From a virus, in the IMG/VR virus record IMGVR_UViG_3300028920_000148, positions 1 to 39,655 of that record: a stretch of 39,655 nt of DNA; one strand, written 5' to 3'. The translations under genes and the position numbers were made by a program. Positions within the stretch are counted from its first letter, which is position 1. The number at the start of each line of letters is the position of its first letter. This document shows positions 22,890 through 25,797 of the stretch, piece after piece. Below the pieces are notes generated by a model. That model made no database searches. It had not been told where the DNA came from and saw nothing but the letters and a program-made list of their open reading frames with translations.

Positions 22890-23378
22890 CTAAAATTTAG
22901 ATAAATACCAATAACATATTTTATTATTATTATGATAAATAGCAACAATATCGTTTGGATTATCATAGTCCAATACGTCTTCTGTCACATTCATTGTTAT
23001 AACTTCTCCTAGCACTCCGCCTGCATTTTGACTGACAACAACATTAACACAATTATTAAGATTACCATTTAAGGTCGTAGTAACTTCAGATCCTCTAACC
23101 TTAATTGTCACCTGTTGTGGTGTCATTCCATTTGGTGTGTATAAAATAATAGTGTCTGGTAATGGGTATCTGTTATAAAGTATTTGGTCTATATCTGCTG
23201 TTCTGTGATCTGAAAATACAATAGAGTCTGTTGATTGGTTGTGTGTATATGGTCTTGTGATTGGCGTCTCTTCTTCTACTGGGGCTACGTATGCTGCGCT
23301 TCTTGATCCTGTCTCTTCTGCTACTTGTTCACAGCCAAATAATGCAAATAGCATAAATGCTATAACTAGCTTTTTCAT
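22890..23378 (-). CDS. Lipoprotein, 162 aa
   Basis: Signal peptide MKKLVIAFMLFALFGC with a lipobox (LFGC, Cys16), then a Glu/Ser/Pro-rich linker and a strand-rich domain without recognised motifs. Secreted and lipid-anchored, exposed to the periplasm or cell surface. It stands alone between terminase and portal with its own promoter, a good ribosome site (GGAGGTGAGAC) and a promoter for other genes right behind it. This is the arrangement of a moron gene, so superinfection exclusion is one possible role (inference). A virion or lysis role is not excluded. It ends in TAG. Confidence 0.7.
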   Translation of the reverse strand: MKKLVIAFMLFALFGCEQVAEETGSRSAAYVAPVEEETPITRPYTHNQSTDSIVFSDHRTADIDQILYNRYPLPDTIILYTPNGMTPQQVTIKVRGSEVTTTLNGNLNNCVNVVVSQNAGGVLGEVITMNVTEDVLDYDNPNDIVAIYHNNNKICYWYLSKF

Positions 23379-23478: not shown

Positions 23479-25797
23479 TCAATATGCAACAACTCCACCA
23501 GTATTTACGTTGTTGTTCTCTGGTTTAATATAAGGATTATTCCCGTGATAGTCTACGCCTAGTCTGTCTTCCCACATTTCATAATCGTCATCAAACACAT
23601 CTTTTTTCTTTAGCCCGTCTATGGTCATGTTAACTCTTGGTTCTGCTTCCATGCGATAACATTCGTCCTCAAGGGCGTAGCGTGTCGCATCTAGGCAATT
23701 TGATACAAGTATTCCATTTGCGTAGAATAAAGGACAGTCTTTAATTGTTAGATTATATACGTCTCTTTTGATGTATAAGTTTTCCCCTACAAGAAAATGA
23801 ACATGTTTTAACCTTTGAATATTTGTCAGTCTTAAATGGTTCGTTGCAGATAACACAGCGTCTTTCAATGTCATCAACCTTTGAATCACGCCTATGCTTC
23901 GACTTACAAGCATTTGAACAATAGATCGCTTTCTTTGTGCGTGTATAGAATTGTTTTCCACATTGTTTGCATGTATGCTCGAAGTCAAGCCCTTTCCCCT
24001 CCCATGCTTTAACGCCGTGATCTCTATGCCATTCTCTGCCCTCTTCGCTTGCGTGCCATTCTTTTGTAAGTGGTCTAATCTTATCAAGATTCTGCTTAAC
24101 AAACTCTTTGTTGTCTTTGTGGTATTGTTTGGCATGCATCGAAATATGTTTCTTTTTACAAATACACTCAAGGTTATCAATGGCGTTATTAGTTTTATTA
24201 TAATCCTTGTGGTGTATTGCATAGTCTTTAGGAATAGTCCCGTTATAGCTCTCCCACACCTCCAGATGTAATGCTTTATGTTTTCCGTTATATCTACAAG
24301 TAGAGATATAATATCTGCCATTAAAATAATACTTCTCGCCATTAAATATAATATGTTTCTTTTCTTGCATGTATCTATTATATCACCGTATCGCATAGAG
24401 TCAATCTTAATCATTCTCCCTTTTGAATATATCTTATGGCTTGCTGTTGAGAATAACTCAACCCCATTTGAATATAGGGATCTATATATCTCTCTAGTCC
24501 CTGTCTTGCCACAATTAATAAGTGGCTTATATCCTATTGGCGTAAGTATTTTGTCGTCAATGGTTATTTTATCTATACGCTTTACTCCATTATCAGTTTC
24601 AACTAGCGTACTGCCAATAAAACAGTGATTGTCTTTATCAACGGGCACTGGCATAGCGTTGCCGTCTTTATCCTCTTTGTATTGGTATGTTTGTATCTCG
24701 TTAACATAGTCCTGACATCTTGGGTGTATGATGATCTCTAGTGACTGCAAAAACTTAATACCGTACTCTATTGATCCTTTGCCTTTCTTTGCGCCAAAAG
24801 CATTTAATCCTAGCTGTTGCCATTCTGCTACTGATTTGGGTTCTGCGCTATCGCACTTAACTATCTCTATCCCTATCTTCTCTTTGACCATCTTAGCAGA
24901 GTCTTTGTTGAGTAGGTTCTTTTGGTATATCGTGTCACAGACATATAGCTTTCTTTGGTTCATGTTTAAGTGTAAGCGCACAAAAGCGAATGGATCGCTA
25001 CTAAATCCCCAGTCAACACCGTTGTGGTATCTGTCAAAAGAGTCTGGATCAAACTTCTCTATCTTCCAATTCTTAAATATAATATGGCCAAGTATTCCCC
25101 AATTACCTAGAGTATATACCTCATACCAGTATCTATCCTTCTCGTTCTCTAGTGCTGCACAATCTTCTGGCTCTAAGAACTCATTATCTTTGTATGTTGT
25201 CTTTAGTATTGATAGATTCTCTGTCTCTGCATAGTTTTCTGCTTCATTCCATAGCCCTTTAAAATACTCTGTATATATCCAGTGAGACTTTAATATCGGG
25301 TTAAATGAGATAGTTAGCCTCTTTTTAAATTTTGATCTACCTCTAAGTCTTTTCTTTAGCTGTTTAATATCGTCTAGTTCTGCTTCTGTAGCTTCCTCTA
25401 CCCATATATCAGTGATAACACCTTTAGCTGGTGTAATAGATTTAACCTTCTCTACGTCGTCTAGGCCAGCAAATAGTATCTGTGAGCCTGTTAGCTCGCA
25501 TGTAATAACCATCTCTGACTTGTTTATGCTGAAATAGTCCTGTAGCTTAAACTTATATATTGACTTCTTTATCTCGTTAAATGTTGACTTCCTGAGTGTG
25601 TTGCCTGTCTTACGGCAGATTAAATAGTTTCTACCCCTTAATACGTCTAATACTGTTCTGTCTGAGAGAAACACTGACTTACCAGAAGATGATCCGCCAA
25701 AATATATCTGTTCTCTATGCGTATTGTCTATATGCCTAACGTATACTTTGTTAAAGACTCCTTCTGTCTTTATATCAATCTGTAATTGATTTACCAT
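23479..25797 (-). CDS. terL: Terminase large subunit with intein, 772 aa precursor
   Basis: The ATPase domain has Walker A GGSSSGKS (residues 34-41), Walker B VITDIWVEE (127-135) and SFNP (164-167). The nuclease domain has D262 (GVDWGF), D316 (CDSAEP) and D703 (CLDATRYALE). Between H391 and C701 lies a 309-residue intein. Splicing would give a 463-residue enzyme, normal for the family. The intein interrupts the conserved NH-x-D-A-RYA motif two residues before the third catalytic aspartate, so the nuclease is probably inactive before splicing. The enzyme packages DNA through the portal. The start overlaps the small subunit by 23 bases; the ribosome site is weak. Confidence 0.9.
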   Translation of the reverse strand: MVNQLQIDIKTEGVFNKVYVRHIDNTHREQIYFGGSSSGKSVFLSDRTVLDVLRGRNYLICRKTGNTLRKSTFNEIKKSIYKFKLQDYFSINKSEMVITCELTGSQILFAGLDDVEKVKSITPAKGVITDIWVEEATEAELDDIKQLKKRLRGRSKFKKRLTISFNPILKSHWIYTEYFKGLWNEAENYAETENLSILKTTYKDNEFLEPEDCAALENEKDRYWYEVYTLGNWGILGHIIFKNWKIEKFDPDSFDRYHNGVDWGFSSDPFAFVRLHLNMNQRKLYVCDTIYQKNLLNKDSAKMVKEKIGIEIVKCDSAEPKSVAEWQQLGLNAFGAKKGKGSIEYGIKFLQSLEIIIHPRCQDYVNEIQTYQYKEDKDGNAMPVPVDKDNHCFIGSTLVETDNGVKRIDKITIDDKILTPIGYKPLINCGKTGTREIYRSLYSNGVELFSTASHKIYSKGRMIKIDSMRYGDIIDTCKKRNILYLMARSIILMADIISLLVDITENIKHYIWRCGRAITGLFLKTMQYTTRIIIKLITPLITLSVFVKRNIFRCMPNNTTKTTKSLLSRILIRLDHLQKNGTQAKRAENGIEITALKHGRGKGLTSSIHANNVENNSIHAQRKRSIVQMLVSRSIGVIQRLMTLKDAVLSATNHLRLTNIQRLKHVHFLVGENLYIKRDVYNLTIKDCPLFYANGILVSNCLDATRYALEDECYRMEAEPRVNMTIDGLKKKDVFDDDYEMWEDRLGVDYHGNNPYIKPENNNVNTGGVVAY
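23753..24370 (-). CDS. HNH homing endonuclease gene nested out of frame in the intein, 205 aa
   Basis: HNH motif: H53-H54 in AIHHKDYNKTNN, N66-L67, C71, H75 and H79. Two Cys4 fingers follow: C134/C137/C151/C155 and C172/C175/C190/C194. This layout fits a free-standing HNH homing endonuclease that would cut intein-less terminase genes. It is not in the terminase frame. It has its own ATG, an in-frame TGA five codons before that ATG, and a TAA stop inside intein block F. It therefore looks like an independent gene and not a domain of the intein. A promoter candidate ends six bases before the ATG; no clear ribosome site is present. Confidence 0.85.
   Translation of the reverse strand: MQEKKHIIFNGEKYYFNGRYYISTCRYNGKHKALHLEVWESYNGTIPKDYAIHHKDYNKTNNAIDNLECICKKKHISMHAKQYHKDNKEFVKQNLDKIRPLTKEWHASEEGREWHRDHGVKAWEGKGLDFEHTCKQCGKQFYTRTKKAIYCSNACKSKHRRDSKVDDIERRCVICNEPFKTDKYSKVKTCSFSCRGKLIHQKRRI
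24377..24404 (-). promoter_or_regulatory. Candidate promoter for the nested HNH gene
   Basis: TTGACT (24399-24404) and TATAAT (24377-24382) with a 16-base spacer, 11 of 12 consensus bases. The ATG of the HNH gene begins seven bases after TATAAT, so a transcript from here would start at or very near the start codon. Confidence 0.45.

Follow-up and report, generated by a model that had tools for sequence, protein, structure and literature searches.

The window analysed in this study was the whole IMG/VR record IMGVR_UViG_3300028920_000148, with a length of 39,655 bases. A continuous open reading frame (ORF) for the large terminase subunit (TerL) lies on its minus strand. This frame carries an intein, and a complete HNH endonuclease gene is nested within the intein in another frame. 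The features are listed below.

23479..25797, minus strand: TerL ORF, 772 aa, intein-bearing; Pfam Terminase_3 at 1.5e-45, Terminase_3C at 2.3e-24, phage_term_2 above cutoff
24625..25797, minus strand: N-extein, TerL residues 1–391, ending ...DKDNH in the RNase H-like nuclease motif
23698..24624, minus strand: intein, 309 aa, TerL codons 392–700, Cys1 to Asn309 and then Cys+1
24364..24624, minus strand: N-terminal splicing region of the intein, blocks A and B, residues 1–87; predicted Hint fold, pLDDT about 90 or more over most of it
24383..24387, minus strand: weak Shine-Dalgarno-like GGTGA, 12 nt upstream of the HNH ATG, within the codons for intein YGD
23753..24370, minus strand: HNH homing-endonuclease gene, 205 aa, HNH core and zinc-finger-like CxxC pairs; matches to HNH_3, phrog_15471 and the I-HmuI profile, pLDDT 96
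23785..24363, minus strand: shadow stretch, the TerL-frame translation opposite the HNH gene, intein residues 88–280; pLDDT mostly below 60, 0 stops against 8.8 expected
23698..23784, minus strand: C-terminal splicing region of the intein, blocks F and G, residues 281–309; TIGR01443 intein_Cterm, pLDDT above 90
23479..23697, minus strand: C-extein CLDATRYALED..., the remainder of TerL

The first-pass annotation had placed an HNH gene out of frame inside a terminase intein at 23698–24624, and these coordinates were exact on recomputation. A small ORF at 22890–23378 on the minus strand, between terminase and portal, has a lipoprotein-like signal (MKKLVIAFMLFALFGCEQ) and belongs to no family.

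The intein reads CFIGSTLV...GILVSN/C and is inserted at NH/CLDATRY in the TerL nuclease motif (slashes mark junctions). It has C1 in block A and T60-x-x-H63 in block B, and the Asn followed by a Cys, Ser or Thr extein residue that is required for membership is present at its C-terminal junction as N309-C310. Among 36–42 relatives, C1, H63 and N309 were invariant and C310 was conserved in more than 90%. The penultimate residue is Ser and not His (VSN/C), as in several relatives. The C-terminal region matched TIGR01443 intein_Cterm with 21.4 bits (cutoff 15.6), 39 of the 42 members sharing this layout matched Pfam Intein_splicing, and the gp41-1 intein was found by the intein-family profile at 2e-20. 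The structure was predicted confidently at residues 1–87 and 281–310 but not between, and no recognisable fold was found in the predicted structure of the shadow stretch. The best structure match of the predicted core was the gp41-1 intein, with an rmsd of 1.8 Å and a probability of 1.00. Judged from sequence and predicted structure, the insert is a genuine intein; protein splicing itself is inferred, without experiment. Removal of the 309 residues from the 772-aa ORF would leave a spliced TerL of 463 aa.

The HNH ORF begins with ATG at 24370 and ends with TAA at 23755–23753, at an offset of +2 relative to the terminase frame. The closest upstream stop in its frame is the TGA at 24385–24383, which is at the same time part of the GGTGA element. 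The HNH gene is complete, with its own start and stop, as the first-pass annotation had proposed. Its product matched Pfam HNH_3 at 1.2e-13 and phrog_15471 HNH at 1.9e-37. The profile matched the homing enzyme I-HmuI at 0.0016, and the fold gave only a weak structure match to I-HmuI (E 0.16). The mean pLDDT of the predicted structure was 96. In 58–68 HNH relatives, H53, H54, N62 and H75 were invariant, H79 was present in more than 90%, and the CxxC pairs were invariant or nearly so. On these profile and model data, the HNH ORF is a real, I-HmuI-like gene. Cutting of insert-free terL is inferred from its position and from its sporadic distribution.

In most members of the family, the HNH gene starts near the end of block B and stops in or adjoining block F. 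The GGTGA element occurs at identical spacing in loci L015b, L088 and L094. Full Shine-Dalgarno sites were found in other nested members, for example AGGAGG(5) in L091 and GGAGG in L074 and L009. Since good sites are present in several members, internal initiation of HNH translation is likely, although the site in the window is weak and initiation has not been shown.

The distribution of this arrangement was investigated by searching viral contigs with the HNH family, to which phage records and one archaeal MAG were added. Single-sequence queries with full TerL or HNH returned few relatives, and alignments of four to six sequences were effective. The shadow stretch alone as query recovered only 3 loci. 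The first set contained 45 loci, the window included, with an HNH gene inside a continuous terminase-intein ORF, and the TerL frame was +1 of the HNH frame in all 45. A hold-out set from a second search contained 31 loci absent from the first set, with exact copies removed. The relative frame was the same, and the shadow frame open, in 31 of 31. Some near-duplicate loci remain in the nested set. A frameshift or assembly error was ruled out, because both layout and frame recur in about 75 further virus contigs and in one contig of an archaeal genome. The claim that the endonuclease is a separate overlapping gene was borne out by the 45 and 31 loci. An HNH domain fused in frame, which had been named as the observation that would refute it, was not found.

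The nested set includes Acinetobacter phage Highwayman, Tetrasphaera phage TJE1, a Rhodobacteraceae phage, a human-gut phage and a Thermoplasmatales contig. In the last (L099, Thermoplasmatales archaeon MAG CP070724.1), the terminase with this nested intein is encoded on an archaeal chromosome and presumably belongs to a provirus. Locus L015 (1155–4376) has a single terminase ORF of 1073 aa with two inteins, at DWGFS/CDP and NH/CID. Each of the two contains a separate out-of-frame HNH gene, and the relative frame is the same. Locus L081 (946–4347) has a terminase ORF of 1134 aa with in-frame matches to LAGLIDADG-type homing endonucleases in addition to the nested-HNH intein; these matches probably represent a second, classical intein. 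In the Highwayman (L003) and TJE1 (L010) records, the terminase is annotated as a single unspliced protein and the nested HNH gene is unannotated. The families phrog_30251 and phrog_35162 match the shadow-frame region of the window, and PHROG reference families seem to contain translated shadow sequence.

The openness of the shadow frame was compared with chance. In random sequence of 36% GC, the probability of 206 open codons is about 4e-7. A stricter null kept the HNH protein fixed and redrew synonymous codons to local base composition. For the window, 8.8 shadow stops were expected, and 0 of 300 redraws were stop-free. Across the 45 nested loci, 0 stops were observed in 8,901 codons, against 293 expected. 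Free-standing HNH relatives had 6.9 shadow stops per gene (7.2 expected), and relatives between split-intein halves had 8.5 (8.4 expected). Both controls agreed with expectation, indicating that the null was well calibrated. The stop avoidance reaches the amino acids of HNH. Met ATG before an A-initial codon, which creates a shadow TGA, was found in 0 of 74 cases in nested genes, 25 of 68 in split and 20 of 67 in free ones. For Ile ATA before a purine, the counts were 0 of 236, 51 of 114 and 36 of 112, respectively. The hold-out nested loci gave 0/53 and 0/129 for the same two contexts. These codon counts follow from the absence of stops; they locate its cost and are not independent proof.

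The openness is partly circular, because membership of the nested class depended in part on a continuous ORF. This circularity is limited by the hold-out set, by the free and split controls and by a selection based on the C-terminal block. With a strong C-terminal block, in whichever frame, as the sole criterion, 41 of 42 loci were continuous and in the same frame; the exception was Vibrio phage 1.238, which is now split. The remaining alternative frame has about 20 stops per gene and is hardly usable, which may account for the fixed phase.

Selection was further investigated by comparing substitutions in the two frames. Between the window and its closest nested relative, L015, there were 47, 28 and 69 differences at HNH codon positions 1, 2 and 3. 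HNH position 3 is position 2 of the TerL frame, and the excess there indicates that the HNH frame is the constrained one. The pooled omega of the HNH frame in nested pairs was 0.46. Substitution patterns thus place the HNH frame clearly under purifying selection, which the first-pass annotation had suggested testing in homologues. In the shadow frame, pooled omega was 0.77 in nested, 1.22 in free and 0.87 in split genes. By this measure, shadow amino acids would be at most weakly constrained, with selection acting mainly against stops. Amino-acid selection on the shadow is not claimed from so weak a signal. The proposal that selection maintains the second open frame is supported, with one refinement: the shadow is kept free of stops (none in the 45 loci, 31/31 open in the hold-out set), but constraint on its encoded residues is weak at most (omega about 0.8).

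The mobility of the insert was examined in relatives. The intein was absent from all eight terminase relatives at about 50% identity. Seven of them (L103–L108 and L110) read through the motif with an empty site, and the site is empty in the eighth, L109, too. L109 (458–1241) is interrupted elsewhere: a probable group I intron follows ITDIW in the Walker B region, with an Rfam score of 35.6 bits that falls short of the gathering score. Among nested loci, the insertion point varies within the motif and falls after NH, NHA, DA or DN. A further 24 HNH relatives in terL lie between split-intein halves. Nested, split and free copies are intermingled in the HNH tree; the nested state needs 8 label changes, at least 4 of which are forced by well-supported branches. 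The deep branches are unresolved and the bootstrap has not settled, and the tree gives no direction among the free, nested and split states.

Two loci show other states of the same region. In Vibrio phage 1.238.A (L011, 2169–3275), intein blocks of the nested type are present, the shadow contains stops, and the terminase is in two ORFs with HNH between them; this is perhaps a recent step from nested to split. In Exiguobacterium phage vB_EauM-23 (L012, 2250–3109), the annotated terminase ends ...NNHSMAA* exactly at the intein site and is followed by a free HNH gene. No intron was found there by Rfam, and the terminase is possibly broken or intron-carrying.

These data bear on the role of the HNH protein. 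A role in packaging is described for HNH proteins of some phages (Kala et al. 2014, as cited in PMC12613952), and of the relatives with neighbours read, most are located within terL or next to it. The HNH protein could therefore be a packaging partner of the terminase, of the HK97-like type, encoded within terL by chance. This is very improbable. The gene sits inside a self-removing insert at several different motif positions, and this insert is missing from the relatives at about 50% TerL identity. Moreover, HNH relatives move between nested, split and free states, and the profile match is to a homing enzyme.

The HNH domain could also be joined to the N-terminal part of the intein by a ribosomal frameshift after block B, as an unusual fused domain. 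Near the junction both frames are open, and block B is immediately followed by the start of HNH. An ATG near the end of the N-terminal block in most members, the good Shine-Dalgarno sites in L091, L074 and L009, and free-standing relatives that are whole proteins of about the same length make this explanation very improbable.

Removal of the insert as RNA, with HNH in a self-splicing intron and the intein resemblance secondary, was considered because I-HmuI-type HNH genes often lie in group I introns and L109 has a probable one elsewhere in terL. It is scarcely tenable: no Rfam intron was found in the window, L003 or L015, the catalytic C1, H63, N309 and C+1 are conserved, and an intron needs no open frame, yet every nested copy is open. 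A decayed intein, in which the terminase no longer splices and HNH is the sole live part, would fit the 190-residue shadow without a confident fold and the penultimate Ser, but it can practically be set aside, as TerL is essential with its frame open and conserved, the catalytic residues are invariant in 36 relatives, and a stop-free shadow in all nested copies would be pointless unless full-length TerL were translated.

The best explanation of the observed anatomy, conserved frame, stop depletion, HNH purifying selection, empty sites and several insertion sites is a mobile intein in the TerL nuclease motif, with splicing and homing encoded in two overlapping frames. This explanation is considered highly probable. 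Protein splicing, internal HNH translation, target cutting and homing are inferred steps of it. In the TerL frame, a small splicing domain of the Hint type would be encoded in two parts, separated by about 190 residues of shadow sequence that is stop-free but meaningless. The precursor would splice out the intein to give the 463-residue terminase. The I-HmuI-like HNH gene, in the -1 frame between blocks B and F, would be initiated internally on the same mRNA. Its product would be expected to cut intein-free terL near the NH-DA-RY motif during co-infection, and repair of the cut would copy intein and endonuclease together. The shadow frame would be kept open only to allow translation and splicing of the terminase.

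In the usual description of an intein, the splicing and endonuclease domains are parts of a single fused polypeptide. The window intein resembles classical inteins, such as SPbeta bnrdE and PI-SceI, in its Hint domain and in the position of the endonuclease between blocks B and F. It differs in that the endonuclease is fused in frame in those inteins, whereas the window HNH is at +2. SPbeta bnrdE was considered as an older precedent and rejected: it is a normal intein with its LAGLIDADG domain in frame, and its other two frames have 20 and 50 stops. Fractured genes, in which split inteins carry a nuclease gene between the halves, were reportedly described by Dassa et al. in 2009. They likewise have a separate nuclease gene between the N and C parts of an intein. 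In the nested form, however, the host gene is unbroken and one continuous precursor would splice in cis; a split intein requires the host ORF to be in two genes, and TerL is continuous over 772 aa. Free-standing HNH proteins beside terL (Orf3 of Pseudomonas phage PAE1 and the HNH of Acinetobacter phage BP10) belong to the same family, with 40–44% identity. They lie outside any intein, and the matching shadow frame has 3 and 12 stops, respectively.

The nearest published precedent is the ShiLan domain, an HNH out of frame in a methylase whose host frame is open throughout (PMC11855218, 2025). The window HNH is likewise out of frame in an open host frame (HNH sequences were not compared). No intein or intron is present in ShiLan, and its authors concluded that it is unspliced and stays in the non-essential methylase; its sporadic distribution suggests homing (PMC11855218). 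In the window, the overlap lies within a recognisable intein in an essential gene, and several members have their own ribosome-binding sites. The absence of any splicing element that characterises ShiLan does not apply, as the window HNH has clear intein blocks on both sides. The first-pass annotation, made without searches, knew of no such arrangement; a precedent exists in the out-of-frame HNH without an intein that had been published as ShiLan. Gorbalenya 1998 (non-canonical inteins) and the preprint of Gosselin et al. 2025 on non-canonical phage inteins (doi 10.1101/2025.01.02.630785) are both cited in PMC11855218 with regard to overlapping reading frames in phages. The results confirmed a variant of the endonuclease-bearing intein that is widespread and has its homing gene overlapping the frame for splicing, with splicing, HNH production and cutting inferred. 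Its priority relative to Gorbalenya 1998 and Gosselin et al. 2025 is unsettled.

A wider reading is put forward tentatively, as a possibility still short of probable. Phage terminases may contain a widespread class of inteins, as yet without a name, whose splicing and homing functions are encoded by separate, overlapping genes that always stand in one frame relation. A free HNH gene beside terL, bringing its own start and stop, would invade a small intein, and the host frame would then be kept open for cis-splicing. On failure of this, a split intein with HNH in its middle would result. If this is true, the nested class would be a source of natural split inteins. For the study of dual coding, the nested loci are a large natural collection, and one HNH family that is found nested, split and free provides a clear external control. 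They are also a warning for annotation, as the terminases of these phages are entered as one unspliced protein each and the HNH gene is missed (e.g., Highwayman and TJE1). With the two functions decoupled into overlapping genes, a selfish endonuclease can hide in an essential gene with its own translation start, and the only cost to the host frame is the avoidance of stops. The arrangement suggests testable routes for the entry of free-standing endonucleases into inteins and for the origin of split inteins.
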